A DNA stretch of 64,000 bases from Symbiodinium natans (Eukaryota > Sar > Dinophyceae > Suessiales > Symbiodiniaceae). Under the pieces are notes generated by a model, which had not been told where the DNA came from, searched no databases, and saw nothing but the letters and a program-made list of their open reading frames with translations. Of this stretch, positions 27,034-60,814 are shown in pieces (the stretch's first letter is position 1; every line of letters starts with the position of its first letter). The stretch lies in the NCBI GenBank assembly GCA_905221605.1, contig CAJNDS010002380.1, positions 90,001 to 154,000 of the forward strand, written 5' to 3'. A program made the position numbers and the translations under genes.

Positions 27034-27243
27034 GAACGTGCGTTCACACTCAGCAACTTAACAAGGAAGGAAACGGGCGTTCCCAACTTTAATAAAGAAA
27101 GGGAACACAACGTAAAAAGTAAGAGAAAGAGAACGGGCGTTCTCAATCTCAGCAAGTTGCAAGAAAGAGAGAAAGAGAACGGGCGTTCTCAGTCTCACTA
27201 GTAAAGCAAGAAAGAGAAACAAAGAGAAAGAGAACGGGCGTTC
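27034..27243. promoter_or_regulatory. Five-copy GAACGGGCGTTC inverted-repeat array
   Basis: GAACG-GG-CGTTC sites at 27131-27142, 27177-27188 and 27232-27243 are exact; 27034-27045 (GAACGTGCGTTC) and about 27070-27082 (GAAACGGGCGTTC) are variants. Centre spacings are roughly 36-61 bp. Sites are separated by AAGAAAGAGA-rich DNA. The array sits 100-310 bp upstream of the ATG of the minus-strand ORF starting at 26930. GAA and TTC half-sites in inverted order recall heat-shock elements, but the spacing is longer. A binding-site array is inferred only from position and repetition. Confidence 0.5.
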
Positions 27244-27868: not shown

Positions 27869-28529
27869 TCACTCCAATCTCAGAGGTCTGTTGCTGTTCC
27901 CTGTCACACATGCCGAACACGGAGTGATGCATGTTGGGTTGGAGGTAACGGCCGCCACATGTTTGCAGTACACACTGTGATATTTGTCCCCAGACGGGAA
28001 CACACACAGTTCTGTGTTGCCCGGCTCTGGCTTACAGTTCCCACATTGCCACATAGTTCGCCATGATCCCTCCATGCGATGGCATGTCTGATCGTGATGA
28101 AAGATGCCCTGAGACTCTGAAGCAAAGATGCGCTTGTCAACTCTATCCTTGCAGCTGGAACTTGCATGCTTCTCCCTTGCACCAGCTGCCTTCGGCCTCG
28201 CTCTCAACGACGATGCCTCCTTTTTACCATCTGGCTCACGAGGGTTCATCTGTTGACTTCTCTCAGGCATAGAGTTGTTTTGGGCACCTTGTGGCTTCAT
28301 CGCGTCATCATCCAGAGGCGGGTTCTGTGTAGCAGCTCTTTGCTGCCCATAGCTCATCCGGAAAAACAATGCCCACGCACAACAGCATGTCATGATCAGC
28401 GTACCAACCAAGATGCCGTTGACAAAGCACCCGATGATGCTCTACTGGCCTCGCAGTCTCCACTCCAGAGCTCATCAACGCAAGAAGGGCCACTGGAATC
28501 GCCACTCTCATCAAAGGCTGTGCAACCAT
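27869..28529 (-). CDS. Third ORF of the copia element: membrane and Cys/His-rich protein, frameshifted
   Basis: Begins at the ATG at 28529, 145 nt after the pol stop. The first frame gives a hydrophobic leader (RVAIPVALLALMSSG). The next natural segment is one frame over: IIGCFVNGILVGTLIMTCCC and AWALFF form a clear membrane helix. A hydrophilic linker follows, then a Cys/His module: CGNC, later GDKYHSVYCKHV, and finally CITPCSAC. A frame change near 28430 separates leader and helix (indel or small intron). An envelope-like role is possible, as in some plant copia elements that carry extra ORFs. That is inference; no viral glycoprotein motif is seen. Confidence 0.5.
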
Positions 28530-28673
28530 GACGCCCGAGGGAAAACTAGAAAACTTGCGTTACAAAGAATCGCAAGTGCTGTGCAAACGCACTGTGCAAA
28601 ACGCACTCTGACTATACTCCTCACATGACTTGATCATGTGTGGCGTAAGATGAAACCAAATCGGATCCCCCTT

Positions 28674-41371: not shown

Positions 41372-44300
41372 GGGCTCGAAGCGGATGTGCTTGCGCCCGA
41401 CAGCGGCCGCGGCAGTTCCAAAATGCAGAGCCTCGGTTCTCTCCCAGCTTTCTCAAGGATGGTGGATGAATCTCCAAGGTTTTAGAGTTTTGCTGAGGTT
41501 AAGCGTTGAGAGACTTTTGGGGGGTGAACCATGGTGGAGCTTTTGGGCTCCCAATCACGTTTTTTCAAACCTCTCAGCAAGAGACGCTAGCAAGGAGGCA
41601 TCCTATACCGCCATCCTTTCACCTCCAAGATCTCCCCGGCACACCCCCTCCCCCACCCCCCACTTCCTGAGGTCCTAGAGCCTTGACTGAACCTAAGCCC
41701 CAATCCCCACTTCCTCAACCCGAAGCATCCTTTTAGCCCGAGTGGAGTGCAGCTCTCCTAACCCTTCCAAACGGAAGTCCCGCTCAGGAATGTTACGGCT
41801 TTGGGGTCCGGTGCCCGTCAATTTCTGGGACCTTCACCAGATCGGGAGCAGGAGTATTTTGCCTTGGGGCTTTTGTGCCCTACTCCCCAAGCTCCCAAAA
41901 AAGTCGCTCCCGCAAATCCTAGATTCAGCCCGAAAACTCTAAGCCCTACGCTTGCGGGAGGGCTGTCCATTCGGCGGTCCCAGCAAAGTTGTTGAGTTCA
42001 CCATTTACCTTGAACCCTAAACCCTGAAAGCCTTCATTCCTGAACCTCGAACCATATCAAAACTCTGAGACTCTAAGCCCCTAAGCCCTAAACCTCTAAA
42101 CCCCAAGCCCTAAATCCCTAAACCCTAAACCCTAAACCCTCAAAAGCCTTCAAGGAAGCCCCGGCGCCCGAAGCCAGAAGACCCTTACCTACCTCGAGGC
42201 CGAAGAACCCGTGGACGGCAAATCTCCTGAGCGCGTTGGGGGCCCTGAGCTTGTATCAGGGTTTCGAAAGGGTGGGGTTTGGGGTTTAGGGTTTAGGGTT
42301 TAGGGTTTAGGGGTTTTAGGCTAGTCTTGCAAGATCCTCGCCGCTTTATGTGAGTTCAGGCTGTTTGGGGTGTGACAATGTGGGACGTCAGGGCAGGGCT
42401 GAGCCAAATCATCGCCTTAAAACGACGTAACCCTACAGGCTTTCCCAAAACCCTACGACCCCCAACCTGTCAGGATCTTCAGTCCTGGGTCTATAGACGG
42501 CTTTTCTTCAATACTTCAGAACAGGCCCCTTTGCGCTTGTAGAGTGAGAACCTGAACTTCGCTTACAAACTTGAGATAGCAGCGAGGCTGGGCATCATGC
42601 ACTTCACCAATGAGGAGATCAAGGAGGCCAGGTTTTGAGCTGTTCTCAGACTGCTCGCTCCGCCTTTCGCGGCGGGTGGGCTGCCGTGGAGTTTAGGGCC
42701 CCACGAAGGCCCGAAAGGGTGCAGGTCGGAGTTTAAGTGGAGACCCAACCCGAAAATCTTTAAACCTAAGCCCGCCGGCAAAGCTTGAGCAGCTCAAAAA
42801 TCGCCAAACCCCCGTTTTTTGTTTCCTTCCTTTTCCGTTCTTATTTCTATGTTTTCCCCCCTCTTACGCGCCAGACTTTCGACTCCCTAGTCGGGGAGGC
42901 ACGCACCCCAGACTGGGCCGAGGGTTTTTATCTCAAGGGTTTCTGGTTGAGGGGCTCGAGAAGCTGAGGAGCTGCAAGGCTTGCGTGGTCTGGGTGAAGG
43001 GCTTCAGGGTTGATACAGGCCGCGGACTTTAAGGCTCCTGCTTCAGTTCATGAGTTTCAGCTCAGGACATGGAGTTTCGGGGGCTTTCCTTGAGATGAGG
43101 AGTTTGGGTTCAGGAGTAGACCGGCAGCTGAAGCTTTCGTCGCTTTGCTTCGGAGGTTCGTGCAGGCCAAGACTTCAGATTCTGTGAGGTCGCAAGTCCG
43201 GGGGAAGCAGCTGTGATTTCGAACGCGGGGTGTTGTCGGGTGTTGGGCTGTAGAGTTGGTTCAGGGCTTGTCGGGGATCGGCAGCGGTAGCTACGTGCCC
43301 GCAGCTCAGGGAAAGCCTGAACCAAGAAGCCGGGTGTGGATGTCACCGCCCGCCCAGGCTCAATCGATTCAGAAGGTTCGGATGTTTGAGCTGCTCAAGG
43401 CAGGTCGTCTTCGGAGCGCCTCGAATGGCTTCTGTGATCACATACGCTCCAATTGCGCGCTGGTTCAGCCTTGCACCTGCACTTGTGCACGCGTCCGCAT
43501 CCACGCTTTTTTGCACCCAACCTTAAAGCCTGAACCCGAATCCTCAAGCAGGTAGCCTACGGATTCGAGCCGATGCCCGAGGATCGCAGATGCGAGAGTT
43601 TTTTAGGGGGTTTAGGGTATGAGGGTATGAGTCTCCGTTGGTTCAGGGTTTAGGGTTTAGGGTTTGGGGGTGTCGGGTCTCCTTCGTGATCCTACCGGGG
43701 AGGCTTGGGGTGCTCGGAGCCCATCTCCCCCATGGCACGGAACAGGAGATGGGCCTCTTTGTGAACACTTTTCGCGCCTGAGCCGCATTTAAAGGTTGGG
43801 GATTTTTTCTGGAACGAAAGCCCAGCCTGACCTACTGTAGGGGCCTGTTAGCCTTGCGACATCCCAAACATGCGAAACCGGGGCTTGGCGAGCTGAGGGT
43901 TTGGAGGTTTCAGTCTCGCGGGATGGGCTCCCAAGCCTTATGATCAAGTTCGGAACCCCGAAGCCTCGGAACAGCTGCGAAGCCAAGTAAGTGTATTGCC
44001 GTTCCCCAAACCATCCCAAACCCCTTTCAGAAGCTCTCAGAACTGAAAGCGCTCGTAAACGGTGTTTCTTCGAAACTCACAGAGTCTTCGAAAGCCTGCC
44101 CGCAAAGAACTCGAAGACGACGCTGGCGAACTCTCGTGGCCAGAGCTGGAGGCGTGGCGCTTTGTGATCATGGCTTTGGGCTTTGAAGGAATTGGGGCTG
44201 AAAGGCACTGAGACTCTGGCGAGAGTCAGTCGTCGCAGGGTTGCAGGGTTGGAGTGGCTAGACCTGAAGTGTTTGCAGGTAGCAGGTCCGAGATCTGCAG

Positions 44301-47060
44301 CAGTGCCTACTTTGCCCAACCAGTGCAGGGATGGGGTTTGAATACCACGTCTGCTGTTGCAATTTCTTCGTTCCCCAGGCACCCTAAACCCCAAGCTGCC
44401 CGAAACCCTAAACCCCAAACCCGAAACCCCAAACCCCAGCCCTAAACCCTAAACCCTAAACCCTAACCCTAAACCCTAAACCCGAAACCCGAAAACCCGA
44501 AACCCTAAACCCTAAACCCTAAAGACCACCCTCGCCAGGCAGGGTTCGACGAGATTCGAGACATCCTGCCGCTCGGCTGGGAGTGTTGCCGCAGGTTTGT
44601 GGGCTGGGGGCCCTAAACTCCCTAATCTCCCTAAACTCCCTAAACACCCCAAACTCAACAAATTCAGGGGGTCTGAGGTCTCGTTCCCTTGCGCGGCGAT
44701 CCTCATCGCCCTTACAACAAGCCCTAGATGGGGGTTTACTTAAATAGGGACCCTAATACAGACCCCCAAATAGTAGGATCCCCTTATGATAAGGACCCCA
44801 ATAAGGCACCCCCTAATTTCGGAAATCCCCACATGTTTGTTTCCGGTACCAGGGGTGCAGGCTCGAGAGTTTACGTCCGGAGTCCGGTCCACAATCCTCA
44901 TTGCTTCCCGTTTTCACGGGCTCCGAAAAGCCCCCGGTCTAGGGTGTAGGGTTTAAGGTTACCAGAGAACTATGACGATGCCTTGAAGAAGAGTATGTGG
45001 GTTGATGTAAATGTCGGGGGTTGACCTTCCAGGTCAGTCCGGGTTTAGGGTGTAGGGTTTCAGGTTAAGTGAAATATTACCAATAACTATGACGATGCCT
45101 TGAAAGTGTATGTGGGTTGCTGTTGGGGTGGTTGACCTTCCAGGTCCGGCGTGTCGAAGAATGCCACCGAGTGCCTTGCAGGGTCAAGTTGGCCCTACGT
45201 CAGTCTTTCAGTTGCTGCCAGTCTGATTCATGTCAAGTGCAGCATGGATCCTTTTGAAAGTCTTCAGAAATCCCGCATTGTCTCTGAACTAAACCCGTGC
45301 GAGGTACACCTCATCGGACGACCTTAGAACCGATGCCCTCAAGCCAGCGCCCTCAGTTGGACGCTGTCGCAGGGCAAAGCCGCTGTTTCCCAATGGGCTT
45401 TCATCCGATAAAGGATAGTGAGGGCGGCTCCGTTGTTTGATCTGAAGTTTTACTTTTTGCCGGTACCTGGATCTGTGCTTTCAGTTTCACACAAGCTATA
45501 TTCTTCTGTCTCAGAGAAACTAGAAGCAGCTGTTTGTGCTCGATGAAGAGAGGGCTTGCCTTGGTGGAGCCTTGAATAGTTTTTGGAGACAACAAGATAC
45601 CTTTTGTTCGTGTCAATATCAAGCCTAACAAGAACGAAATGTCTTGTTGTTGCTAACCGGAAACAAGACATGTTTCCATAAAAGGTAATCATAAGACATC
45701 TCTCTTTTGGTATGAATGATGCTTTCAATACGATCTCTGAACAAAAAGGGTCCTGAGGAGAAAGGTATCTTGCCTTGCTTAACAAGAAATGTGAAAGTCG
45801 GATGACGTGCTGGGTCAAACTTAACAACACAAAAGAACATGTAGATCGCGCGCTTATCTCCTGTCTTGCTCTTACCTGATGAGAAAGCTCATTCTTCTCT
45901 GATAGCAGCTTCCCCAAGAAAAGTGAGCGATTTGCCATCAACAATCAGAGAACCCCTGTTCATCTTGGCGGTCATCAGAGAGCGAGTCCTTGGTTCTGTT
46001 TGTCCATGTGCTGTCACAATATTCTTTCCGCCAGGGCGGGGTTGGGCGTGTGGGCTTCCAAACCCTAAACCATCCTAAACCGCACACTAAACGCCTAAAC
46101 CCTAAACCCTAAACCCTAAAAACCTAGAAGCCTACAAACCTAAACCCTGAACCCCAAACCGACAACATTGGGACTTCACAGCATTTCGTGAGCCTGGGAG
46201 AGCAAAAGCCTCGACAGATGTCCCAATGCTTTTGGGGCCCCAATACACCCAACAAAACCAGGGTTTAGGGTTCAGGGTCAAGGGGTTAGGGTTTTGTTTC
46301 GGAAGACCCCCCAAATCATTGTTTTTTTTTGCGCTGTGGTGCTTTCCCTTGTAACTTTGAAGGGGGAAAAAGCCTCGTGATGCACCGTTGTATGAAGCTC
46401 CGTTAACAGAGAAATAGGTGGATCCATGCGCGCTACCATATGGTCAGTTCTCAAAATGATAGTCCCTTGAAACCAGGGGCTGCCTTAGCATAGTACCCCA
46501 AAAAACGACCATATTTTCGAGAAGTGACCATACGTGTATATATATATATATGTATTTATTTATCGCGATGCCCAGGATTGATAGGAAGCTTGCCCCTTGA
46601 GTTTAGGGTTTGCCGTTCAGGGCACCAGCCCCTGCCCCCAGCCCCGAGGCACCGGCGGCTTATGAAGGATCCCATGGACAAGTTCAAGGTTTTGGGGGTT
46701 AGGGGTGGTTCGAAGTTTTGGAATTCGGGGGGGGTGGGGGGGGATTTTTAAGGTTCTGGGCCTGGGGTCTCGGGTTCATCATCAGCTTTAGGGCGCTTGG
46801 AGTGTGAGCCGTGAGGCTGAGGTTCATGATGCTTGACCGGAGGTTGCGTTTGGGGCCTGGGGATGTGAAGCCGTTCCATGCCCTGAGCTCTGAGCTGCCA
46901 TGAGCCACCCTAGTCCAGATCACAAGACTCTGAGGGAGCTCAAGAAGACTCCGGACTTGTCGGATCCAGGTTTGGAGTGAGCCGGAACTGTAGGTTCAGG
47001 GTTTAGGGAGTTTCGGGTCTAGGCAAGGAGCAGTTGGAACAGCTTTGTGAAATCATGGAC
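41372..47060 (+). CDS. Unrecognised intron-dense host gene (at least 8 exons, partial)
   Basis: Exons inferred from frame, phase and AG/GT signals: 41372-41478, 42159-42260, 42545-42631, 43291-43399, 44539-44594, 46649-46688, 46927-46969 and 47023-47060. All phases fit when joined; the 43399 donor is GC. Readings include LEADVLAPDSGRGSSKMQSL, LTYLEAEEPVDGKSPERVG, KLEIAARLGIMHFTNEEIKE, QSIQKVRMFELLK joined to AGFDEIRDILPLGWECC, and DPMDKFK joined to TLRELKKTPDLSDP and KEQLEQLCEIMD. The shortest intron is 53 nt. About 200 residues are covered; both ends are missing. The protein is soluble, with charged helices. I do not recognise the family. Single exons are uncertain but eight consistent junctions are unlikely by chance. 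Confidence 0.55.
44938..45145 (+). repeat. ~100-bp tandem duplication inside an intron
   Basis: AGGGTGTAGGGTTT, then AACTATGACGATGCCTTGAA, then GTATGTGGGTTG, then GGTTGACCTTCCAGGTC occur twice (44940-45035 and 45051-45150). Confidence 0.85.
45450..45944 (-). CDS. Hypothetical 164-codon frame in an AT-richer island
   Basis: The minus strand reads MLMANRSLFLGKLLSEKNEL onward. In an overlapping frame (45840-45625) a very protein-like stretch occurs: FFCVVKFDPARHPTFTFLV and PFLFRDRIESIIHTKREMSY. Base composition is clearly lower in GC than the flanks. It may be a decayed insertion (organelle- or element-derived) with a frame change, lying inside a large intron of the + strand gene. No family recognised. 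Confidence 0.3.
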   Translation of the reverse strand: MLMANRSLFLGKLLSEKNELSHQVRARQEISARSTCSFVLLSLTQHVIRLSHFLLSKARYLSPQDPFCSEIVLKASFIPKERCLMITFYGNMSCFRLATTRHFVLVRLDIDTNKRYLVVSKNYSRLHQGKPSLHRAQTAASSFSETEEYSLCETESTDPGTGKK

Positions 47061-47779
47061 GTTTCTGTGTTCGGAGCTGCACCGCACTGGAGTTTTCGGG
47101 CGTCAGAGCCTGCACTCTCTTGTTGGAGAGGTCGAAACCAAGTCCTTCTGGTGTGCCAACGACTATACAAAAATAGCTCGCCGCCAAACCCACTCCCGTG
47201 CTGTACACCCTGCTTGAGTCCAGGAAGTTGCAGAAGGATCCCCTCTGAAAAGCCCAAAGCCTCAGGGTTTAGGGTTTGGGGTGCATGTCGGGTAGATGTC
47301 AAGAGGCTTCCCTCCGCCAGGCCCCGATGACCGAGTCAATGTCCATTGGCTGGCATGAAGAGGAGGCAGCTTGCGCCTTCCGGTTTGTACAGACTATTCT
47401 GATATTGTTTCTTTCTTTTCGCAGTCATTAGAGTCTTGTTCTAGTCTCGTTTAACCCTCAGTTTTGATTGTTGTGCTTGCATCTACTGTGACTTCTACTC
47501 TTCGTCATATTACCATTCGTATCCCCCATACACCTCAACCAAGGAACATTCCCTACTTCAGACCTCAATCACGTGCACCCCCCACACGAAACCCGCCCTC
47601 ACACATTCCATCCCCCCTCTCCACCCGGCACTTTCGAGTAGCTATCCCTAACCCCAGGTGCAGCACTCTCCTGTTTGCCAGGTCTTCAATGAGCGCTTCC
47701 CCAAGCAGTCCTGTTCCGAAACGAGGCAAGCGCCCGCTCCGTTAGGGTGTGGGGCGTTCGAGGTGTTTGAGGTTGTTTT

Positions 47780-48640
47780 TTGGGGGGGTGTGGGGTGTGT
47801 GGGGTGTGTGGGGTGTGTGGGGTGTGTGGGGTGTGTGGGGTGTGTGGGGTGTGTGGGGTGTGTGGGGTGTGTGGGGTGTGTGGGGTGTGTGGGGTGTGTG
47901 GGGTGTGTGGGGTGTGTGGGGTGTGTGGGGTGTGTGGGGTGTGTGGGGTGTGTTGTGGGGTGTGTGGGGTGTGTGGGGGTGTGTGGGTGTGGGGGGGTGG
48001 GGGTGTGGGGGGTGTGGGGGGTGTGGGGGTGTGGGGGGTGCGGGGTGTGCGGGTGTGTGGCGGGGGGGGGGGGTGGGGGTGTGGGGGTGTGCCGGGGTTG
48101 TGAGGGGGGTGTGAGGGGGGGTGTGAGGGGGGGTGTGCGGGGGTGTGCGGGGGGTGCGGGGGTTGTGCGGGGGGTGTGGGGGGGTGCGGGGGGGGGGGTG
48201 TGCGGGGGGGTGGGGGGTGTGCGGGGGGTGTGCGGGGGGGTAGTGCGGGGGGTGTGCGGGGGGTGTGCGGGGGGGTGTGCGGGGGTGTGGGGGGTGGGGG
48301 GGTGGCGGGGGTGTGGGGGGGTGTGAGGGGGGTGTGCGGGGGGGGTGTGCGGGGGGTGTGCGTGGGGTGTGCGGGGGTGTGCGGGGGGGTTGCGGGGGGT
48401 GTGGGGGGGTGTGGGGTTTTGGGGTTTTGGGGTTTTGGGTTTTGGGGTGTTGGGGTGTTTGGGGTGTTTGGGGTGTTTGGGGTGTTTGGGGTGTTTGGGG
48501 TGTTTGGGGTGTTTGGGGTGTTTGGGATGTTTGGGATGTTTGGGGTGTTTGGGTGTGTGTGTGTGGGGTGCTTGGGGGTGTTTGGGAGTATTTGGGGGTG
48601 TTCAGGGGTTTCTGCGGGTGTTTTTTTTTTTTTTTTTTTT
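47780..48640 (+). repeat. G-rich satellite (GGGGTGTGT)n passing to (GGGGTGTTT)n and poly-T
   Basis: About 20 perfect GGGGTGTGT nonamers (47785-47950), then irregular G-rich sequence with up to 11 consecutive G, then GGGGTGTTT nonamers (48440-48550) and a 22-nt T run (48620-48643). G runs of four or more at short spacing on one strand would favour G-quadruplexes. All frames are open (GCVGCV, VWGVWG and similar) and none is a gene. Confidence 0.95.
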
Positions 48641-48643
48641 TTT

Positions 48644-49172
48644 TAAGGGGGTGTTTGGTCTGTTTGGCTGGTTTTTTGCTTAGCTTTCAGAGTCATAGGC
48701 CGGAGCAGTAAGTTTCACAATGGAGGGGTGGCAGCGCTGGAAGGTATGCCGATGAGATGGTGAGGTGCAAGCTCGACCCCTTCTGAATTTGCGGACCCAG
48801 ATCTCACCCCGGGTGCACTTTCCACCCGGCATGTTCTCACCATCTACGATCAGCTATGATAGGCATGCAGGATGCACGGCAGCAGGCCCTGAGTAGGCTC
48901 GTGTTAAGAGTATGTTGCTTTCTTGTATGTGACTGAAGATCGTGTCACTGCAAGCAATAGGCATGGCATGCACACAACCTCACTGCACAGAGTAAGAAAG
49001 AAGTGCGTCGATGGGTCGGGGCGCGTCGGTCCTGGCTCCCGAGTCCCCCCACCCGGGACTCCGCCCGTGCGGTCCTCAACATGTGGCACGGTTAGCAAAG
49101 GGTGAGGGCTTTGTTTTGAGGTCACTTCCAGTCCGGCCTGCACACGCACACACACACACAGTGTGTCTCTTT
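48644..49172. other. No gene recognised
   Basis: Unique DNA between the G-rich satellite and the reductase gene. It may hold the promoter or leader of the reductase gene; no motif can be named. Confidence 0.3.
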
Positions 49173-49270
49173 CTCTCTCTGTCTCTGTCTGTCTCATTCA
49201 GTGCTCTTTCGTTGTTTATTCTCTCTCTCTCCCTCCCTCTCCTTCCTTCTCTCCCTCACTACCTTTCTAG
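49173..49270 (+). promoter_or_regulatory. Polypyrimidine tract and acceptor, candidate spliced-leader addition site
   Basis: TCTCTC, CTCCCT and CTTCCTTCTC blocks run from about 49165 to 49268 and end in CTTTCTAG|GCGC. The first ATG of the reductase lies 88 nt downstream. In dinoflagellates nuclear mRNAs receive a trans-spliced leader at such acceptors, so this may mark the 5' end of the mature mRNA. An ordinary 5'UTR intron end is the alternative. Confidence 0.45.
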
Positions 49271-49357
49271 GCGCACACCACCCCCGGCATGACTGGATTC
49301 TGAAGCCTTTTGGTCGTAGCGTTGCCAGTTGCTGGCAAGGGGGGGTCCACCGCCATA

Positions 49358-50362
49358 ATGTCGTCCTTCACCATGCCTCGCGTTGCTTTTGGCTGTTGGG
49401 AGTTGCCCAAAGGGAAAGTGGAGGAAGTCGTGTATGAGGCCATCAAGGCGGGCTACCGGCACATCGACAGTGCTGAGATCTATGGCAATGAGGAGGAAGT
49501 TGGCAAGGCTGTTGCCAGAGCCTTGGCGGAAAAGATCGTCACACGTGCCGACCTCTTCATTTGCTCGAAGCTTTGGGGTACCGACTGGCACAAAGTCAGG
49601 GCAGCGTGTGAGAAGTCCATTGCGGCCCTCCAGTGCGAGTACATTGACTTGTACTTGATCCACACCTCGATCGGCCTCGATGCGGCCGTCCCTGCGGATG
49701 CCAATGGCAAGCCCGCTCGCGCAAAGATCCCTGTTCCTATATCCCCCTTGGGAATTCTTTTTGTATTTTTGTTTATATAAAGCCCAAGAGGATATTAAAA
49801 ATAATATTTCTATTGAGGTTCTAAGGGGGTATAGGTTCATCGTGTCTGGGCAGACATGGAGAGCCTCGTCGACGCCGGACTGTGCCGCCACATCGGCGTC
49901 TCGAACTTTTCCTGCCTCCAGATTGCCGACATGCAGACATACGCCAGCAAGCCCATCGCCTGCAACCAGCTTGAAGTGCACCCCTCCTACCCCAATCGTG
50001 CGCTCGCGGACTGGTGCGTCTCCCAGGGCGTGGCAGTTGTGTGCTACTGCCCTCTCGGCACAGGCAAAGGCGACCTTGAGCTCCCTGCTCTGAAAGCAGC
50101 TGGTGCGGGTGGACCCGGAGCCGCGGCCTCTCCCGCCCTTGCCGCCCTGCGCTGGGCCTTGGACAAAAGGTACCACGTTATCACGAAGAGCACTAACGTG
50201 GAGAGGATGAAGGCAAATCTTCTCGCCGACTCGGACTCATGGTCGCTGTCACCTGAGCATACCGCGGCGATTGATGCCGTGTCGGGCAAGTCATCGTCCG
50301 TCGACCTGGCCTTCAAAATCTGTGATCACGCCGAAGAGTTTGGCCTTCCGATGTACAACTGA
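49358..50362 (+). CDS. Aldo/keto reductase, two exons, 300 residues
   Basis: Exons 49358-49732 and 49835-50362 join in frame (KIP|VHRVWADMESLVDAG). The start is the ATG giving MSSFTMPRVAFGCW; the frame is open further upstream but without an ATG. The AKR tetrad is complete: D37 and Y42 in HIDSAEIYGNE, K71 in CSKLWGTDW, H102 in YLIHTS. Family signatures GLCRHIGVSNFS, NQLEVHPSYPN, and the NADPH-binding ITKSTNVERMKANL follow. Length matches the family (about 300-320). It would reduce carbonyls with NADPH in the cytosol; the substrate cannot be predicted. IHTS in place of the usual IHWP is slightly unusual. Its single intron looks like a small inverted-repeat transposon. Confidence 0.93.
49733..49834 (+). 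mobile_element. 102-nt introner-like intron with inverted termini and GTTC repeat
   Basis: The intron begins GTTC and exon 2 begins GTTC, so the insert is flanked by a 4-bp direct repeat. Inside it, CTATATCCCCCTTGG at the left and the complement of CTAAGGGGGTATAG at the right form an inverted repeat of about 12 of 13 bases with one extra T. The interior is AT-rich (TATAAAG, AATAATATTTC) unlike the GC-rich exons. Splicing GT-AG at 49733/49834 restores the reductase frame. This structure fits an introner, an intron created by a short DNA transposon. Confidence 0.7.
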
Positions 50363-51324
50363 CCCCTTTTCCATCGTGCGATTGCACAGCATTAGGGCCA
50401 GGACATTTTTAATGTCCACGAGAGGATGCGTTCAAGCGCGCTTTTGTCATGGCCAAACCGCAATCATTTGCGCCGAACACAAGCTGTTTCATGTATTGAC
50501 TCTGAGACGATGTTGTTCTATTCTTTCCCATTTTCTGGAAAGAGAACATCACCATTGACCGACAGTATTTGTACCCCGAACATCCAATTTTGCGATATGT
50601 TTCTCAAGAATGGACTCATGCAAACGTTGGGTGACGCAATTCTTTTTATCAGAGCTCTACGTGCCTTGTACACTTAACCTTCTTCAAGATTTCATATGAA
50701 GTTCAACCGACAAACATAGTTAAGGAGGCAAGTCAGCTACGGGCTGTGGCGCACTACCACCCGGCAGCTTCTGTGAGAGGGTAAAGCCGAGCGTCAGCTC
50801 ACGAGAACCCTACATGTCACCACCAAAGGCTCCCGGGGCTGTGACCACAGAGTATTCGTAAGGCTTGCACGAAACATCGGAGATGGCAGAAAGAAAGACG
50901 CAGTACTCCGCTACTTGCCTGGAGATCTTTGAAAGATGTGTAGAAGTCCCGAGACAGGAATGGTTTCGGGATCAGGGCTGCACGCGGCTATCTGGCTCAA
51001 GAACCGGTTTGTCCAAGGAGCAGTCCACCACAAGCCTTTGAAGCCACCATCTCCCTGGGTCACGTGAATTCTAGGGAGCTGCAGCCTCACTAAGTATACG
51101 TCAGTTTCCTGGGTTCCAGTGTGGACCTGGGTAGGCCGCCAGGTGGTTTTGAGGGTTCTTGTGGTACAAGTCTGATCTCAGCATTGCCAGTGGGTTCAGG
51201 GTCTAGGGTTAGTTGTGCAGCCTGTTGCAAGTTGCAAGATGCAAACTCAGACTGCCGCTCCGTTTTTGTCAGGGCGAATGACGTAGGGTCCATAGGGTAC
51301 AGTTCAAGGGCCACGCCCGGTAAG
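50363..51324. other. No gene recognised
   Basis: Downstream of the reductase stop; AT-richer to about 50720 (likely 3'UTR), then unique DNA with no recognisable exon before 51325. Confidence 0.35.
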
Positions 51325-51420
51325 CCGCGATATTTCCGCGCCTGGTGTGGCCGCCAGAATGCCGGGAGACCCAAGGGTGTGTCGCCCGAACTCTGGAAAT
51401 GGGCTCGGGGGCTTATTGAG
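51325..51420 (+). CDS. Candidate internal exon, gene unknown
   Basis: Bounded by TAAG and GTTCAG, 32 codons in phase 0 to 0, reading RYFRAWCGRQNAGRPKG and SPELWKWARGLIE. The composition is clearly protein-like. It could belong to the 5' part of the cyclophilin gene or to another gene. A MITE begins 11 nt into the following intron. Confidence 0.4.
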
Positions 51421-51431
51421 GTTCAGAATTG

Positions 51432-51527
51432 GGATGTTCCCCCTTATACTTGCAGTCCTGAATAGGGATTATAGTACCCCCCCAATATAGTCTCTAGGAA
51501 GGACGGTTAGTAGAAGGGGGAACATCC
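51432..51527. mobile_element. 96-bp MITE, GGATGTTCCCCC family (copy 1)
   Basis: Left end GGATGTTCCCCCTTATACT and right end (complement) GGATGTTCCCCCTTCTACT match at 18 of 19; similarity continues to the AGTCCT/CGTCCT positions, giving termini of about 28 bp. The interior is GGGATTATAGTACCCCC. No coding capacity. Confidence 0.8.
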
Positions 51528-51748
51528 AAAGTTGAGAACGTGAACCAAACTTTAGAATTTGTCGGGTCAGTTCTTCGAGTTATGCTCCTTGGATTCCCGA
51601 AGCTGTAGCACGGGTTGCGGGTTTAGAAGGGGACGATACTTCGGAGAGTTTGGGTTAGGAGTTGTTACAACATAAACCCAAAGGAGTCGAAACTTCAGAG
51701 ATGACAAAAAGTTACACCTCGCACTTCACCTCAACATTGTTATATCTT

Positions 51749-51832
51749 GGAATGTTCCCCCCTATACTAACAGTCCTCAATCGGGATTATAGTACCTTAT
51801 TACAATCCTTATTAATGATTGTTAGTCTAAGG
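51749..51832. mobile_element. MITE, GGATGTTCCCCC family (copy 2)
   Basis: GGAATGTTCCCCCCTATACT, then CAGTCCTCAATCGGGATTATAGTACC as in copy 1; the right end is degenerate (TGATTGTTAGTCTAAGG). Confidence 0.65.
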
Positions 51833-51834
51833 AC

Positions 51835-53930
51835 AGAGAAGACTTGAGAAGGACGAAGGATTTTGCAGAGAAAGAACCGACCAAGCACAAGAACATCCCC
51901 AAACCCCGCATCTGCCAAAATATCCTGAAGGTCCTGAATCCTAATAAACCCTTGCGCCTTGGAACCCGCACCCTGAAAATCCCAAGAAAAGAGCCCTGTT
52001 CACTTCCTAAGCAAAAGCCCTGAATTGCACCTTCTTGTGCCACCGCCAAGCTCTTTCGATTGGGGGAGAGTCATCGGCCTTGCTTTTGTTACACTTCTTG
52101 GGCCCTCTTGAGGGGGCGTACGCCCTAAGCCCCACACCTCTGAGCCCTAAAGCTGCTGGACAGCCGAGACTCTGGCAGCAACATGACGGCCCGGATCGAA
52201 ACCAGCATGGGGCGCGCGGCCCGAGGGTCTTCAGGGGTTGTAAATGAGGCTTTGAAAGGGTTTTCAGGGGATGTTCGAGAGGGTTCGAACAGGGGTTCGA
52301 CGGGATTTCAGAGGGGTTTGTTGCAGGGCTCTTGATGTGGTCGCTCAAGGCCGCTAAAGGGATTAAACAACATTTCAGGGGGTCATGCAGGAGTTTCCGC
52401 TGCAGAGAGAGGAGCTGTTTGCAAGTAAGAGGCCATGTGTGGCGAGATGCTGACCCGAAGCGTCCTGCCCTGGATTGCCCAACCGCAAAGAATCCCTGTA
52501 TGCCGACAGTCCCCCCAGAGCAATACCCTGCCCATCCCCAACTCCTCCAGCAGCGAAGCGAAGGTCGTTGCGAATCAGGCTACATTACGCCAAGACGCAG
52601 GGATCTCGAAGGGGAAGGGGCTGGAGATGCAGTCTCCTTGAGGGTTTGGGGTTTAGGGTTTAGGGTTTATGGTTTAGGGTTTGGTCTTCGGGTGCAGGGA
52701 CATACACACAGGGCTTGAGGGTTCGGCACTGAGCTTTTGCCGATGGCAAAGGGCTGAAGGGTGTGCAGCCTTCAGCCTTCAGGGTCCGAGGCTTCCCGAG
52801 CTTTCCAGGGTTGGAAACGGCTTCCAGGACATTTCGGAGCCTGTGGCGATTTGGGACAAGGGGCCCTATAACCCTAAACCCTGAGCCCTGAACCCTAAAC
52901 CCCGAAGCTGCACAAGGGTCTTCGAGGCTGAAAGGGAACGTTTCCAACCTCCGCCGACTCTCGGACCCTCGATTCACTTTGTGGACTTGCAAAAACCAAT
53001 CTTATGAGACTCCTGTTTTTTTTTCATTTTTTCCGAGGCTTTCTCTCACCTCTTTCGGGGGCCGTTCCGAAGCTTGTAAATGTTAAAGCATCTCAGCTTC
53101 AGTGACAAACCCTTGCAGCCCCAAAACCCTGCGTCCCCAAGCCCTGAGACCTCCCCGAAGTCTTAAAGCTGGTTAGTAGGGAATGGGGGAATGCGGTACC
53201 CTACATAACCCCTTAAAGGGTATATATAGGGGCGGAGATAGGGGGTCCCACGCCTTCGGCGAATTGACCGGGGCGCCAGCTGCGCTGGCGAACCCTAAAC
53301 CCTAAACCCTAAACCCTAACCCTAAACCTTAAACCCTAAACCCTAAACCCTAGACCCTAAACCCTAAACCCTAAACCCTAAACCCTAAACCCTAAACCCT
53401 AGACCCGCCCGCCACCCCTCTCACCTCTGTTGGGTAGGCGGGCGCAGTCGAGCGCTCAGCGAGACCATGGCAGGCTCTGCTAGAGCTGCAGAGCCTGCCC
53501 ACTGCACCCCTGAGGGGTCGCCAAGCTTGGTCGCCAAGCATTGTCACTGTAGCCGGGAATCCTTTGCCTTTAAAAAGATCTGAGAAGCCCTGAAAACCCT
53601 GGGTGGGAAGGCCCCTGACAGGCCCTGAGAGGGGAGGCGTTTGGGAGGCGTTGGGAGGCCCTTGCGCGGCCCCGGGACCTCCCCGGGACAGGGCACCTCA
53701 TTCCCCCATTTCCTACTTGGAGGTTCATGGTACTTATTAACCAATTATCACTGTACTTATAACCCACTTAGAAGCCCCGTAAGCGCCCTGATATGATTAA
53801 AAGTACAGTTTGTGCAGTTACCCTAAACCCTGAGCCCTAAATCCTAAACTCTAAACCCTAAACCCCTTCAAGTACAGTTATAATTGATTAAGAAGTGGCC
53901 TGAACCTCCAGGTACTAGCAGTAAGAAGCT
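51835..53930. other. Intronic or intergenic, telomere-like repeats, no firm exon
   Basis: Contains TTTAGGG arrays (52645-52682), CCCTAAA arrays (52870-52905, 53289-53404) and unique DNA. Short possible exons (for example near 52810 and 52913) could not be tied to a gene. Confidence 0.4.
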
Positions 53931-53959
53931 TGAAAGCTCCCAAGGCCACTGACCAGCAG

Positions 53960-56900
53960 AAACTTCCTGGAGCTGGCCAAGTCTGGGTGAGCCCTGGGTC
54001 GGGGTTTCGGGTTTAGGGTTCAGGGTTTAGGATTTAGGGTTATAATCTATTTTTTCGGAGGGGCTCTGAAGCAATTAGTAGTCTGGTGTGTTGTTTGGCA
54101 TCGGGCTTGGTTAGGGTTTGGGCGAAGAGTTCAGGGTAAAGCAGCCTTGGCTTTCGGGAGAAAGCATGGAGGTGCAGCGGTTTCGGTTTCATTTCTGTCC
54201 TTTTTTTGGTTTAGCGGTTTAGGGTTTCAGGGTTTAGGGTGAAGCGCAGCGTGGCTGAGGCACCAAGATGTTATAATCTGAAGGATGCGGGCTCCAATAC
54301 CCAGAAACCCTAAACTTCAACCCGCCGCTTGAGATTGGGCAGCGGTTATGGCAAGGTACTACGATGGCTGCATCGTCCACCGGGTCGTCAAGGGCTTCAT
54401 GCGCCTTGGGGGAATCTATTGCGTGACCTTTGGGTTCGGAACCCTGAAGCCTCCTATGTTCTGGTCTTGATTTTTGGGTGGTACAAATAGCCTCTTATTT
54501 GATACCTGGGCCCTTAAGCCTTTGCTTGAAGGTTCGTGGAAAGTGAAAAGTTCTCTTAGTGCTACCCCCAAGTAAGGTTAGCACATGTTAGCACATGTTA
54601 ATGTCGTATCCTGATTAGTCTGGACCCCTCCAATAATGAAAAGTTTTCCAAAAATTATTCAGGAGACAAAAATTCGATTGCCCCCCCCCCCACAATAAAG
54701 TAAAGTTTTTCGGGCACGGAAGGCTGCGAACTGTGAGCTTTTAATTACTGAGCTTACCGGAGCTTTCCTGAGCTGAGCTCATCTGAGCTTACCTGAGCTT
54801 ACCTAAGTTTACCTGAGCTCTTACCTTTAGCTTTTATTACTGAGCTTACCTGAGCTTTCCTGAGCTTACCTGAGCTAAGCTCATCTGAGCTTACCTGAGC
54901 TTAATTACTTAAGAGGAGAGGGAGAGGAAGAGGAGAGGGAAGAGGAGCGAAGAGGAAATGAAGAGGAGCCGGTGGGGGGGGCCCGGGGCCGAAAATTAGT
55001 TTGGGGGGGTCCCTTTTTTTTGGTGACACTATTGCGGGGGTGGATTTAGTTTGGGGGGGGGGGGCCCCCCCACACTAATCAGGATACCACATTATAGAGT
55101 TTCCCCACCTTGTCAGAGGGAACCTCCAACCAGGCCAATAAAACACTAAGGTTCAGGGTTTGGGGTTTAGGGTTTAGGGGTTGGGGTTCAGCGTTTAGGG
55201 TTTGGGGTATGGTATCTCACCGTGCACCTCCAAGTAGGGTTCAGGAAGTTGGATGCCAGGATGCAGACTGGCGATCCGGACCCCAGCACTTCCAACGGCA
55301 GTGGTGGCGAGTCCCCGCCGACGCGTTTAGAGTTTTGGGGGTTAGGGTTTAGGGTTTACGGGTTGGGGTTTACGTTTTAGGGTTCGTGGCCCGCAAGCCC
55401 AGATTGCGTCCGGGGTTTGGTGCTAGATTGGGGTCTCCCAAAAGCCCTGCATACTTGTACGTTGAACGTCCGCTTTCTGTGTTGGTACTGTTTCACTTCG
55501 CCAGTGGTATTCCGTAAGAGCTGCAGATACGCAGCTACGCCAAGTTTCGCAAGGCTTTTGTCGGAGGCTTGGCTGGCGGTTTAAGTAGGGTTTGGCTTGG
55601 TGGGTCTTGGAGGTTCATTTCAAGCATCCTTGACCATGGACCCTCACCCTAAAAATATGGACTGCGTGCAGGTCCTCTTTAAACTCAAGGGCTTCGCTGT
55701 TCCCGGTGCTGAGAGGGGTGGCACCTAAGCCCGTTGACCCTTAGCCACCCACAGGTGGGTACGGGAGCCTGTTCTCTTCGGGACCTACTATAGGGGTCGG
55801 AATAATTACTAATAATACCTTGGTCCCAAATCCGTATTCCAATTATTAAGGCCCCTAGACTAGTCCCTTCCATAAGGTATTGCCCCTCCCTTGTCGCGTG
55901 CGTTCCACCAGCCTTCCAGGGAGGTTCCCAAGCAGGCCACTGCTTGTGCGGTTGTCCTGGCGTCAGCCAGATCACTCTTCAAGGACGCAGCTGCCCCGCT
56001 ATCCCTCGTAGTGGACGGCGTGGGGTGTGAGATGGTGTTCGGGCCATAACCGCCTTTCACGCATCACGATGTGAAACTCTCTTTCCCGCTCGCAGCTTCC
56101 CGCTCCATACCACAGAAAATCCACGTCCTGAAGTGTTGAAGCCCAAGCCCCGAACCGCAACCCAGGATTCCACTCAAGGGCTTGGGTGTCGTTCGTTTCG
56201 TTTTGGGGGGCTGGACCCTAAACCCCAAACCCTAAGCCCCCTAAACCCTAAAAACCCGCATGGAGCCGGGAGGTCCATCTATGGCCCAACTTTTCAGGAC
56301 GAGGCTGCCAGCTGGGTTGAGGGTTTAGGGTTTAGGGTCTAGGGTTTAGGGAGCTGGGTTTTGGTTTTGGATTGTCGGTTAACTCACAAGCCGTGGCAGT
56401 TCAGGGGCAATTGTAGGTTTAGGGCTTTGGGGTTGGGCAGCCTTAGGGTGAACCTAAACCCTAAGCTAGAATGGCGGCTGATGGAATCTCCTAAACGTTG
56501 GCAGCTCCCTCCCCCCCACGCTTTGTTCTTCCCAGAGGTCAGAAGTCCCAGTACATTATGGGGTTTCAGTTTGAGGGTCCCATGTTGGTTTCTTGCGGGC
56601 TTATTGGGGCTTCTTTTGGGCTCAGCGACTTGGGCGTACGTGGTGCAGAACTCTGGGGGGGTGTGGGGTCTAGGTTAGCACCTTTAGCCCTGAACAGCAC
56701 AAGCCGGTCTATATTTTGGCAGCAGAATCAGAAGAATGATTAAATTGCTGCGCTTGTGGTTGTGCTTCTTCTTTTTCTTCTCAGAGGCGTCGCCGTCGTA
56801 GATGATGAGGATGATGATGATGATGATCATTAGACTTCTTACCATGCCTATCGTTGTGACTATTGATTAATCATGATCGCCAATGCTATCCTTCGTATCG

Positions 56901-59900
56901 TTGTAACGCTAGGTTGGTGCAAGCAGGTAGAGTGCGCCTTGCGGTTTCGGGTGGTCGAGGAAAAAAGGAACCATGAGCCTTCCACCCAACCCTACAACCG
57001 TTGTTGATCCTTTTGAGGCCCTGAAGAAAGACCGTACTGGGACTTTCATGGGTACTCAAAAGCAAGGTTATAAGTAGTATCACTATGGTTCGAACCTTGC
57101 TTAGAATTCTGAGAACCGTACGTATAAGTACCCATCCCTAAACCCTAAACAGTAAACATAAACTTTCAAGTATTTGCAGATCGTCGCGAGCCTCTCCCAC
57201 GATCGATGTGGTGTTGTATCCATGGCAAATGCCCGGCAGCTCGGAACCCCTAATCCCGGAGGTAAGCCCCGAAGCCCCAAGCCTCAAAATCCCTAAACCC
57301 TAAACCCTAAACCCATTTAACCCTAAACCCATCTAAACCCTAAACTAGGCCCTGAACCCTTCAGGAGTTCAGGGTCTGAACGTTACATTGAATGCAGTCC
57401 TTTATATTTCATGTCTGCCTGCACCCAGCCGAAACAGCGATCTACGAAGCGTCGTACGAGAGCGTTGGAGTTTAGGGTTAAGGGGGTTGCTAGAATCAAC
57501 TGGAGGAGGGACCCTTATAAGGGACCTTTGGGGTCATTTAGGGGTTATTTGGGGGCTGCTGTTTCCTTTTTTTCGTGACGGTATAAGGTATATATGGGGG
57601 TTATGTAGGATAGAAGGGGTCCCTGCTTATACCCCTGAATGGAACTTGGCCTCGGATTGATAGGTGTTGGCGGGAACACATCATTGGGCTGTACCCTCCC
57701 ACTTGAATGCGCGGTTTTTTCGTGAGGAAGTTTGAAGCCCGACAGGCTGAGCCGGCTCAGCCAGTACATGACTCGTTGAAGATCCCTGCAGCGTCGCAGG
57801 GCTTGCTAACAAGGTGCAGCGATTTCAACCAGCAACTTCCTGTGTTTGAACCCTATTCCCGGGCACGGTCGGGGTCTATGACCAAACGCCGCAAGCCACA
57901 GAGCCTGAAGTTTGAGCTTCTTGGTCACTCGTTTTTTGTTTTGCCTTTTGCATCCCACCATGCACTGGGCGGACCCTTGATTTGGCTGGAAGGAGGTCAT
58001 TGACTTGGTTGGAGACATTGATCTCAACGGAGGAAAGCATGATGCCCCAGCGCTCAGGCTGGCTTCAACACAAACTCCTCCCAGTTCTTCATCACCTTCC
58101 AGGTGTGCAGCACCCAAAACAAGGACCTAAACAACTGAAGGTCTCATGCTGCAATGCTGCCTAAACCTTTTAGATTTTTCCGGGGCGTCGCCTGGGTAGT
58201 ACAATGACGAATGTGAAGACATGTCCTGTGGAGTAGCGGGCTCGGCTAAACAAGTTCTGCCGCTAGCAGTGCTGGTGTGGGAATCCGGAACTAAAGCAAC
58301 AAAAGTGGTCCTTGAATCCCCGGAGCCCGATCTGTTGGTCCTTGAAACACATTCTGCCTCTCAGCAGTAGCCTCAATCCCCCTAATCCCCCAAACCAGGG
58401 CCACCCGCGAGCAGGGGGGGGGGGGGGAAAGCCGCAAGGCGTGTGAGCACTTGGACGGCAAGCACACGATCTTCGGTCAAGTCGAGGCCAATGAAATTCT
58501 CAAGCGCGTCTTGGGGGCCAGAGATTCTCTGCACGCAGTCTGCACGTGAAGTGTGAGACGCTTTCAGCTGCAGGGCAAGACCCTTATGAGCCTGTGCCGC
58601 ATCTTTGTCATCTCTCCTTGTTGAAACATAGTAGTTCTGGAAAGCCCAAGTTCCAAACCCAACGACATGCCGGCCAGACAGGAGTCGGATCTCGCGACTT
58701 TGCGGGAGTTTGAGCTTGTGAAGGCGGGTGGCCCTGGCTCTGTGGTGAATGGTGAATGGGTTTGATAGCTTTTGGGCTTGGTGTGGGAAGTTTCGGAAAG
58801 GCTGGCATTCGCGCCTGCACCGGTCCTCGGTGAAACTCCGCAGCCTAAGGACTTCAAATTCCGAACGCTTAACCCCTCAACCCTAAACACCCTAAACTGT
58901 GAACCGTGCATGAGGGTGCAAGCAGGGTGAGACAGGAACCCAGGTCCGAGAACAAGCACCAAAGGGTATGGCTTCACAATGCCAAGCCACAATGACGTTT
59001 GAGGGGTTCGCATTGAAGTTTTGCTGCCTAGGGTTAAGGGTTTACTTGTTTTGGTCATCTGAACCCTAGGAGACTTGAACCTAAAGAGGCTGTAGCCGGG
59101 TGTAGCAGAGGATGTTTCTACACCCTAAACCCTAAACCCTTGGGTGTAGGGATGTCAGCTTGGCAAGGTGGGCAAGAGCGACCGGTGCAAGCCTCGACCC
59201 AGGGCCTCGCAGAGGTTTTTGGAGTTCGGGTTGTAGGACTTAGGGGTCTAGGGTTTAGGGTTCAGGGTTTTTAGGGTTAGGGTTTGGGGTTTGGGGTTTG
59301 GGGTTTGGGGTTTGGGGTTTGGGGTTTGGGGTTTGGGGTTTGGGGTTTGGGGTTTAGGGCAACATCGCATCACTGCCTCCAGAGCCCCTTCCCTAAGCCC
59401 TGAACCTCAAAGCCGAAACGCTAAGAAACTCCCGATGCGGCTTTGCTGCCCAACCATGCTCATGATGCTTCCTACGCATGGCTGTCATGAGCCATTTGAT
59501 GTCACTGTGGCCCTCCCCAATCACAAGCCTCAATCAAAAAGCATCTTGAGAGGTAGGCACATGATGCTGATGCTCATGTGTCTGGCCCGGCCAGACCGGA
59601 GTAGAGGTCCGGCCTCCGTAACAAGCTGTGTGGTGTACAGAGGCAGGCGGTGCCAACCCATGACGCCCATCCATGTTGATGATGCTCGCAAGTCTGACAG
59701 CCACATGCAATTGCTGCGCACGTGAGAACCCACAGTGGCTTGCCAGAGCGCAAAACTGAAAATCCCTAAGCCCGAAGCCCAGACCCTAAACCCTAAACCC
59801 TAAACCCTAAACCCTAAACCCTAAACCCTAAACCCTGAGCCCCATTCAAACTCCTGAGGCCATCCAAGCCGATCAAAGTGTTCGGCATCCACGTGGAAGA

Positions 59901-60814
59901 AGACCCCTGGCCTGCCCCCAAGCAGCTTGACGGGTTTTGCCATCATATGTATGTTGTTTGCCATCATATGTATGTATGTTGTATTGCGCGGGTCTCGGCC
60001 CAGACCCAAAAGCCCAAAAGCCCTAAACTCTTGACACAAAAACTTCAGCCCTCAACCCCAAACCCCAAACCCCAAACCCTAGACCCTAAACCCAAAACCC
60101 TAAACCTTTTTCAGGGCTGGCCAGCCGCTGCCTCCGGGTGCTGCCATTCCTGACAAGCCGCTGGTCAACGAGGACGACGCAGGGTTCAGGGTTTAGGTCT
60201 TAGGGTTTAGGGTTGAGGGACCAGCTTCTGCAGGGTTTCTTGCGAGGATTGGGTTGATTTTTCGCGGAGGGGAGCTTTTTCAGGGCCTTGACGCAGGTTT
60301 CGCAGGTGCCAGAACTGTTCTGAGGTGAGGTTATGGGGTCACAGTTCGAATCTTTTCGTTTCTTCTGCAGTACACCCAGCTTCTGCGGTTTAGGTCCGTC
60401 GGACGGCAGTTTCAGCGATGCTGTCTGCGACTTCGTGTGTTGCGATGCTTGGTTTCCGTAAACCCTAAGCCCCGTCTTGACCTTGTTTTGAAGCGGTCAG
60501 GGTTTAGGGTTAGAAGGGTCTAGTATTAAGGGGTTTAGTATGGTTTAGTGTTCAGGGGGTTCGGGACTCTGAGTTTGGATGGGTACGAGTGGGTTTTCGG
60601 TGGGTTTGGTTGGGTTTGACTTTGGTTTCGAAGGGGCCTGCAGTTCCCCTACTGGATAAAAGTCATGTGCCATAGGTACTTCCCCGACCACACCGCCTCT
60701 AGAGGAATCCTAGGACCACATTCCCACTATGCTGACATTGCCAAGCTGGCTCGCAGTTCCTCCTTTGAGTTGGCGCCGAAGCGCGCGGTGCAGCAGAAGC
60801 GCGCAGGGCACTAG
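53960..60814 (+). CDS. Cyclophilin-type peptidyl-prolyl cis-trans isomerase, at least 9 exons, 5' end missing
   Basis: Exons: about 53960-53986 (NFLELAKSG), 54356-54400 (YYDGCIVHRVVKGFM; GC donor), 55260-about 55324 (MQTGDP and NGSGGES), about 56258-56315 (GRSIYGPTFQDEAASW), about 58058-58102 (AGFNTNSSQFFITFQ), 58439-58545 (ACEHLDGKHTIFGQV), 59859-59933 (PIKVFGIHVEEDPW), 60115-60183 (PLPPGAAIPDKPLVNEDDA) and 60676-60814 (YFPDHTASRG to KRAVQQKRAGH, TAG). Phases agree at six of the eight junctions checked. FHR is VHR here; the QFF core and the HLDGKHTIFG loop resemble nuclear/spliceosomal cyclophilins. A KHDAPA segment at 58035 is out of frame with AGFNTN, 23 nt on, so about 14 residues (normally ending SMAN) are missing: a deletion, an unseen exon or a pseudogene. 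It catalyses proline isomerisation if intact. Confidence 0.78.
55780..55867. mobile_element. 88-bp inverted-repeat element in a cyclophilin intron
   Basis: Ends GGGACCTACTATAGGGG and, in complement, GGGACTAGTCTAGGGGC; the interior GGAATAATTACTAATAAT is also nearly self-complementary with TCCAATTATTAAGG. No coding capacity. Confidence 0.55.
57508..57623. mobile_element. ~116-bp inverted-repeat element in a cyclophilin intron
   Basis: Ends GGGACCCTTATAAGG and (complement) GGGACCCCTTCTATCC. An internal GGGGGTTATGTAGG occurs in complement at 53200-53215, suggesting a related copy there. Confidence 0.45.
59283..59358 (+). repeat. (TTTGGGG)n array, ~11 units
   Basis: A pure TTTGGGG heptamer run, a one-base variant of the TTTAGGG unit just before it (59245-59282). 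Confidence 0.95.

Follow-up and report, generated by a model that had tools for sequence, protein, structure and literature searches.

Two multi-exon genes on the plus strand of a 64,000-nt stretch of the Symbiodinium natans genome (C2068:90001-154000; hereafter the window) raise the question of why telomere-type DNA should lie, in a preferred orientation, at the ends of introns. A first-pass annotation, made from the sequence alone, had described the introns of both genes as tending to be bounded by inverted repeats, TTTAGGG following the donor and CCCTAAA preceding the acceptor. The bounding of many introns by oriented repeats proved real and genome-wide, while several of the splice sites on which that description was built proved wrong. 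Close to donors and acceptors alike, the strand on which the repeats lie is biased with respect to transcription, far above chance and across the genome; absence of such a bias, which would have told against the description, was sought among introns fixed by protein homology and was not found.

The window is part of a dinoflagellate nuclear genome, as the dinoflagellate spliced leader (DinoSL; exact 21-mers genome-wide, 104 forward and 101 reverse, control 0), GC and GA donors and AG|G acceptors are all present. The dinoflagellate telomere unit is TTTAGGG (PMC11453091). Genome-wide counts refer here to the whole assembly that contains the window (759,417,921 bases in 2,543 contigs), in which (TTTAGGG)3 is matched 1,185,204 times forward and 1,184,385 times in reverse (reversed-sequence control, 41 and 33). 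The window itself holds 165 TTTAGGG or CCCTAAA heptamers, compared with 9.0 ± 3.1 expected from dinucleotide shuffles. Interstitial telomeric sequence (ITS), that is, the telomere unit of the species at non-terminal sites, is found as arrays inside genes both in the window and in the loci fetched around exons elsewhere (L033-L067). The features in question are thus interstitial telomeric arrays within spliceosomal introns of a dinoflagellate, the introns being predicted by joining exons on protein homology.

Repeat orientation in a cyclophilin gene

The second of the two genes could be joined through the conservation of cyclophilin-type prolyl isomerases, which fixes ten introns between 11 exons (53955..60811, plus strand; the N-terminal exons are excluded). 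The joined exons encode 212 residues matching Pfam PF00160 (E 3.7e-35), with PDB 8xi2_S as the best solved-structure match (E 6.5e-35). As joined, five donors are GT and five are GC, all ten acceptors are AG, and nine of them are AG|G. The ratio of TTTAGGG to CCCTAAA is 9:2 in the first 75 nt of these introns and 1:17 in their last 75 nt; the middles, 4,721 nt in all, have 10:6. The ends are also denser in heptamers: their roughly 1,500 nt contain 29, and the much longer middles 16.

Both repeat types occur in five of the ten introns, and in four of these TTTAGGG precedes CCCTAAA. The four are 53987..54355 (GT..AG|G; TTTAGGG from 25 nt past the donor, CCCTAAA up to 41 nt before the exon), 55311..56272 (GT..AG|G; CCCTAAA up to 20 nt before the acceptor), 56304..57179 (TTTAGGG from 20 nt, CCCTAAA up to 30 nt before a GCAG|A acceptor; its GC donor is inferred from conserved protein length) and 59191..59858 (GC..AG|G; three TTTAGGG 64-163 nt from the donor, seven CCCTAAA ending 26 nt before the acceptor). 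The fifth, 57231..58057 (GC..AG|G), is reversed, with five CCCTAAA followed by two TTTAGGG, an outward-facing pair between which the homology join has no exon. Three further introns carry one type at the expected end: 58517..59167 (GC..AG|G) and 59934..60114 (GT..AG|G) have CCCTAAA only, the last copies lying 31 and 10 nt before the acceptor, and 60184..60675 (GT..AG|G) has its donor within the repeat-like sequence GTTCAGGGTTTAGG and no CCCTAAA. The remaining two are 54401..55259 (GC..AG|G), with TTTAGGG only and its last copy 59 nt before the acceptor, and 58103..58438 (GT..AG|G), with no heptamer at all. Overall, an exact TTTAGGG first appears 20-63 nt past the donor in five of the ten introns, being farther away or absent in the rest. 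In six of the ten the array closest to the acceptor is CCCTAAA, at a distance of 10-41 nt.

Several borders of the first-pass annotation (53987, 54356, 58103-58438, 59859, 60115 and 60184) agree with this join, and others had to be moved. The donor placed at 55325 and the exon start at 56258 become 55311 and 56273, the donor at 56316 is better placed at 56304, and an overlooked exon (IVASLSHDRCGVVSMAN, 57180..57230) is added by homology. Both introns of this gene singled out as exceptions keep that character: 58103-58438 is repeat-free as described, and 54401-55259 does have TTTAGGG near its acceptor, with the correction that 54401 is a GC donor. Only the donor at 60184 directly bears out the claim that introns begin in a GTTTAGGG-like manner.

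Some further stretches of this gene may be noted. The island at 57345-57470 is flanked outward within a cyclophilin intron across which the protein is continuous, and could be an exon that is skipped or no longer used, or else an exception to the rule. A KAPKAT reading frame upstream of one exon is a candidate coding sequence only; a KHDAPAL frame upstream of another was dropped as coding, the conserved protein being continuous without it. By eye, the gene may start at 52182 (MTARIETSMG frame), with one CCCTAAA about 30 nt upstream.

The first of the two genes (41372..47660, plus strand) has the telomere-type clusters ascribed to it, its exon calls being predictions. Its concatenated exons gave no Pfam match over the cut-off and no convincing PDB relative, and the gene was excluded from all exon counts. 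With boundaries partly taken from the annotation and partly guessed, its six introns have six TTTAGGG and three CCCTAAA in their first 100 nt, and one TTTAGGG and 13 CCCTAAA in their last 100 nt; on the same tentative boundaries, the intron at 44595 has the orientation reversed at both ends.

Orientation beside exons across the genome

Exons of known strand were collected elsewhere in the assembly by homology to dynein (PF12774, 37 matches) and myosin (PF00063, 28 matches). Long frames and neighbours of long frames (18 of the 37 and 6 of the 28) were excluded, and the 19 dynein and 22 myosin exons taken, 41 together, were chosen from the match listings without sight of their flanks. A further 39 exon-like matches, to kinesin (frames of at most 150 residues with no stop), lie outside this set. 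A heptamer lies within 200 nt of 19 of the 41 exons, and 22 have none. Over these 200 nt, CCCTAAA outnumbers TTTAGGG upstream (91 to 20) and TTTAGGG outnumbers CCCTAAA downstream (67 to 14). Scored by nearest array, the upstream flanks show CCCTAAA in 12 cases, TTTAGGG in 5 and neither in 24, and the downstream flanks TTTAGGG in 12, CCCTAAA in 4 and neither in 25. Within 60 nt, and with the cyclophilin exons included, the repeat nearest to the exon is TTTAGGG in 16 of 17 cases past the donor and CCCTAAA in 14 of 18 ahead of the acceptor; the dynein and myosin exons by themselves, with the window excluded, give 12 of 12 and 8 of 11. Exons of one gene being non-independent, the 60-nt comparison was also made by contig, with seven contigs consistent, none against and one tied. 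The orientation rule is strong beside exons and fades with distance.

The 19 exons with heptamers have a GC skew of -0.288 upstream and +0.262 downstream (p 0.0005), as compared with 0.004 and 0.064 (p 0.54) for the 22 exons without heptamers within 200 nt. It follows that introns in this genome can do without a G-rich beginning and a C-rich terminus, and the idea that they have these as a general property was dropped. As a side observation, the genes in L033-L067 seem to fall into two classes, one with telomere-bearing introns (e.g. C1812, C1971, C96 and C204) and one with no telomere repeats near the exons fetched (e.g. C2403, C1757 and C1852). Contig C1 is almost free of heptamers at 200001-230000 and dense in them at 240001-280000, and locus L009 consists of N at 5,000 of its 10,000 bases.

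The rule can be followed without knowledge of gene strand. Because exons would have CCCTAAA before them and TTTAGGG after them, outward pairs (CCCTAAA..TTTAGGG) should exceed inward pairs (TTTAGGG..CCCTAAA) at exon-sized spacing, whichever strand is transcribed. Among adjacent clusters in a first sample of 244 kb (the window and 18 loci), outward pairs number 51 and inward pairs 19 at 100-199 nt, with the reverse, 7 and 23, at 200-299 nt. Two-unit arrays across the whole genome give 194,914 outward and 60,787 inward matches at the exon-sized spacing of 100-130 nt, and a balance of 136,865 and 138,014 at 400-430 nt. At 0-30 nt, head-to-head (inward) junctions exceed tail-to-tail (outward) ones by 6,284 to 2,282. 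One pair of arrays yields several matches, and distinct places were therefore counted by eye among the 100 matches listed per class at 100-130 nt (48 outward, 34 inward), from which roughly 94,000 outward and 21,000 inward places may be extrapolated, a rough estimate taken from the start of one contig. The location and orientation of these arrays are related to gene structure, which is not the case for interstitial telomeric sequence in mammals.

Islands of 90-260 nt outside the window were also scored with a codon model whose training set left out the cyclophilin gene. Outward islands score higher (median 4.43, n=49) than inward gaps (3.32, n=32; p 0.0021), and also higher than same-orientation gaps (n=61; p 0.0003). 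A cruder open-frame test did not separate the classes (mean fraction covered, 0.669 in C-to-G islands and 0.718 in G-to-C gaps), and Pfam recognised no family in three plus-strand frames of locus L021. The outward pattern was also sought in viral contigs and found in none, although records near the genome of the window may be missing from that collection.

Origin of the arrays

Dynein paralogs sharing intron positions bear on whether the repeats made the introns, as the first-pass annotation had suggested. At the NLK|A(V)LFRPV position (GLK|A in L039), L038 and L039 have GC..AG introns of only 76 and 59 nt with no heptamers, and the identical AAG|GC donor recurs in L035 and L047, where two and five TTTAGGG follow in the next 400 nt, no acceptor being found in the stretches compared. 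At the YVTATQ|ALHL position, L040 has a 53-nt GA..AG intron free of repeats, and L037 a 1,196-nt GC..AG intron (576-1771) with nine TTTAGGG and 69 CCCTAAA, in which about 290 nt of mostly TTTAGGG type lead almost directly into about 900 nt of mostly CCCTAAA type. Repeat-free introns of 53-76 nt at common positions imply that the arrays probably grew inside existing short introns. In the genes compared, the introns look old and the repeats added to them; the repeats are probably not what gave rise to the introns.

The alternative that telomeric DNA was inserted into exons and became spliceable there, with donors derived from GTTTAGGG, could appeal to the one cyclophilin donor in ten that lies in repeat-like sequence (60184), but we regard it as very improbable indeed. 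In addition to the shared positions, the AAG|GC donor is the same in all four dynein paralogs with or without repeats, which speaks against a 5' splice site built from the repeat; half of the cyclophilin donors as joined are GC; and the exact TTTAGGG, where it comes closest, still begins 20-63 nt from the donor.

The best explanation, to which we give a probability of about 0.4, is the addition of telomeric DNA on both sides of breaks in short introns. A double-strand break would occur inside an old, very short intron, both free 3' ends would gain telomeric repeats (from telomerase, or copied from telomeres), and the ends would then be rejoined. Regardless of gene strand, this would leave TTTAGGG to the left of the junction and CCCTAAA to its right, and, the intron having been tiny at the outset, both arrays would adjoin exons. 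Miniature inverted-repeat transposable elements (MITEs) or other DNA inserted afterwards would part the two arms, and the arrays would lengthen or decay. Exonic breaks repaired in the same way would be removed by selection, whereas in introns splicing would tolerate the arrays, as CCCTAAA contains neither AG nor GT and could even supply a branch point. Insertion of telomeric repeats at breaks is known in mammals (PMC7215372).

This two-sided addition fits the similar strength of the orientation rule on both sides of exons and the lack of skew in repeat-free introns. It also fits the L037 intron, the greater number of head-to-head than of tail-to-tail junctions, and the flanks of MITEs. MITEs are non-exons and look like later insertions; arrays lie within 200 nt on both sides in six of 20 copies, of which one is flanked outward. 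The idea that non-exon islands are also flanked outward was dropped on this one case in six, a small number.

The chief rival is that repeats enter introns either way round and that selection on splicing sets their orientation, which is possible but somewhat unlikely. TTTAGGG near an acceptor would add false AG acceptors and be lost. CCCTAAA, with no AG or GT, a pyrimidine tract and a branch-point-like CTAAA motif, would be kept or favoured there, and G runs beside the donor would help or be tolerated. In six of the ten cyclophilin introns CCCTAAA is indeed the array closest to the acceptor, and its 10-41 nt are a usual distance for a branch point. Such selection would also agree with the mixed orientation in the middles of the cyclophilin introns and around MITEs, and with the genome-wide balance at 400-430 nt. 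However, the donor side (16 of 17) is oriented at least as strongly as the acceptor side (14 of 18), though CCCTAAA near a donor should be harmless; repeat-free introns lack the G-rich donor or C-rich acceptor skew, so that such signals are not required; and the enrichment of cyclophilin intron ends over middles is not given by loss alone. Selection on splicing accounts for the acceptors, and does not account for the donor side.

A transposable element of the introner kind, with inverted ends that resemble the telomere unit, could instead have inserted into genes or introns and brought in the two repeat types at its opposite ends. Dinoflagellates are known to have introners that carry inverted as well as direct repeats (PMC7789003, PMC11453091), and the window holds an introner-like intron of a different family (49733-49834). 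Against this, we compared the window and the fetched loci with themselves (about 300 kb) after masking telomere-like sequence, a sample from which a rare family could escape. It revealed two MITE families, duplicate loci and local repeats, but no body running from donor to acceptor; the many introns with alignable sequence that mark introners were not seen in it. Direct repeats at the ten cyclophilin introns measure 1-4 nt, part of which is given by the splice consensus, with little beyond it. Array length ranges from one heptamer to hundreds of nucleotides, and arrays stand at intron positions common to repeat-free paralogs. We therefore hold this origin to be rather improbable.

The complementarity of the two intron ends had also suggested a pre-mRNA stem that brings the splice sites together, for which function the arrays would be kept. 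In four of the ten cyclophilin introns the ends do co-fold, by a wide margin, better than mononucleotide shuffles of them (z below -2.7), but in the other six they do not, and the two ends of one intron pair hardly better than ends taken from separate introns (means of -19.7 and -16.5, sd 16.3). The same complementarity spans each exon, and 22 of the 41 anchored exons have no heptamer within 200 nt. Pairing of intron ends is possible but generic rather than intron-specific, and a function of this kind is very unlikely to be what maintains the arrays.

Several observations weigh against two-sided addition as well. Only five of the ten cyclophilin introns carry both repeat types, one of them reversed, and two more break the rule or are repeat-free. 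At 200 nt the exon-anchored counts drop to 17 of 23 and 18 of 25, and by contig at 120 nt seven are consistent and three contrary. Close head-to-head arrays are rare, the 6,284 matches at 0-30 nt being about 22-fold below the number at 400-430 nt; the instability of close inverted repeats, invoked for this rarity, is assumed. Head-to-head insertions are described as exceptional in mammals (PMC7215372). The dynein genes with common intron positions are paralogs rather than orthologs, and at these positions repeats may have been lost instead of gained; the splice joins throughout are predicted from protein homology.

Neighbouring elements and comparison with known systems

Positions 47275-52144 of the window contain no telomere heptamer. 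They include an aldo/keto reductase gene (49358..50362, plus strand; PF00248, E 2.3e-38) with a single 102-nt intron (49733..49834), the introner-like one mentioned above, the ends of which (CTATATCCCCCTT and AAGGGGGTATAG) are roughly inverted. GTTC occurs at both of its borders, one copy forming the donor, and its relatives at L018:8019-8114, L013:9676-9771 and L022:4995-5038 point to an introner-like family. A minisatellite of GGGGTGT-type repeats (47770-48600) lies upstream of the gene. The two MITE families found in the masked self-comparison have inverted ends and lengths of about 100 and 140 nt, and in the loci compared 11 copies of the one and 9 of the other reach at least 60 nt; examples are 51429-51530 and 53714-53808 in the window, L035:869-970 and L022:3882-4020. 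Farther upstream, 5712-9577 and 22935-33653 hold large minus-strand frames that we take, by eye, to be retroelement-like (copia- and DIRS-like).

Internal telomeric repeats are usually read as rare, random repair scars, and here they are oriented to transcription, adjacent to exons and of genome-wide scale. Oriented and exon-adjacent arrays imply that the genome records either the two-sided capping of breaks or a strict splicing filter on telomeric DNA. We would tentatively suggest, as a possibility short of an even chance, that telomere addition at intron breaks has been a major force in gene architecture here: tens of thousands of short ancestral introns would have been capped on both sides, so that exons resemble capped fragments set head to head, and C-rich arrays would now lie in the working 3' splice region. 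Arrays of this kind could account for some of the long and repeat-rich introns in these algae. Programs that predict their genes, and assays of their telomere length, have to reckon with internal copies in the millions. Among the matches listed from the open-access literature (Roy et al. 2023 excluded) we found no description of telomeric repeats oriented in introns, and neither 'telomer' nor 'TTTAGGG' occurs in the main text of PMC8045281 as far as its accessible portion goes.

The closest known system is the short ITS inserted at double-strand breaks in mammals (see also PMC8537989 and PMC2246262), considered scars of break repair (PMC7215372). The arrays described here resemble them in being internal, telomere-type, partly intronic, decaying with age and thought of as repair scars (PMC7215372). 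According to the same article, 31% of the listed human ITS lie in introns, as chance predicts, and none in human exons, and the authors call an effect of ITS on splicing worth testing (PMC7215372). The mammalian intronic share fits random insertion, with no orientation to splice sites described in the passages cited, whereas the arrays of this dinoflagellate are exon-oriented, exon-adjacent and present at very many sites. The passage from TTTAGGG-type into CCCTAAA-type arrays, as in the dynein intron of L037 and at the 6,284 close junctions, recalls the head-to-head telomere fusion at human 2q13 (PMC7215372). The 2q13-type site is, however, a single chromosome fusion, and here there are many such junctions, within introns; direct junctions still make up a small part of all arrays.

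Among dinoflagellates, introners have been reported in Amoebophrya, with inverted repeats of 8-20 nt and direct repeats of 3-5 nt (PMC7789003); for dinoflagellate introners PMC11453091 also cites Roy et al. 2023. The introns described here share with them complementary ends and the same algal group, but differ from those of Amoebophrya in the telomeric heptamers at their ends, the highly variable copy number and the lack of a common interior in the sample compared. Finally, ciliates possess telomere-capped gene-sized molecules and telomere-bearing elements. Such nanochromosomes are mentioned in PMC1805493. The likeness lies in short coding pieces placed between outward-facing telomere repeats; unlike the ciliate molecules, the pieces here are exons in continuous chromosomal genes.

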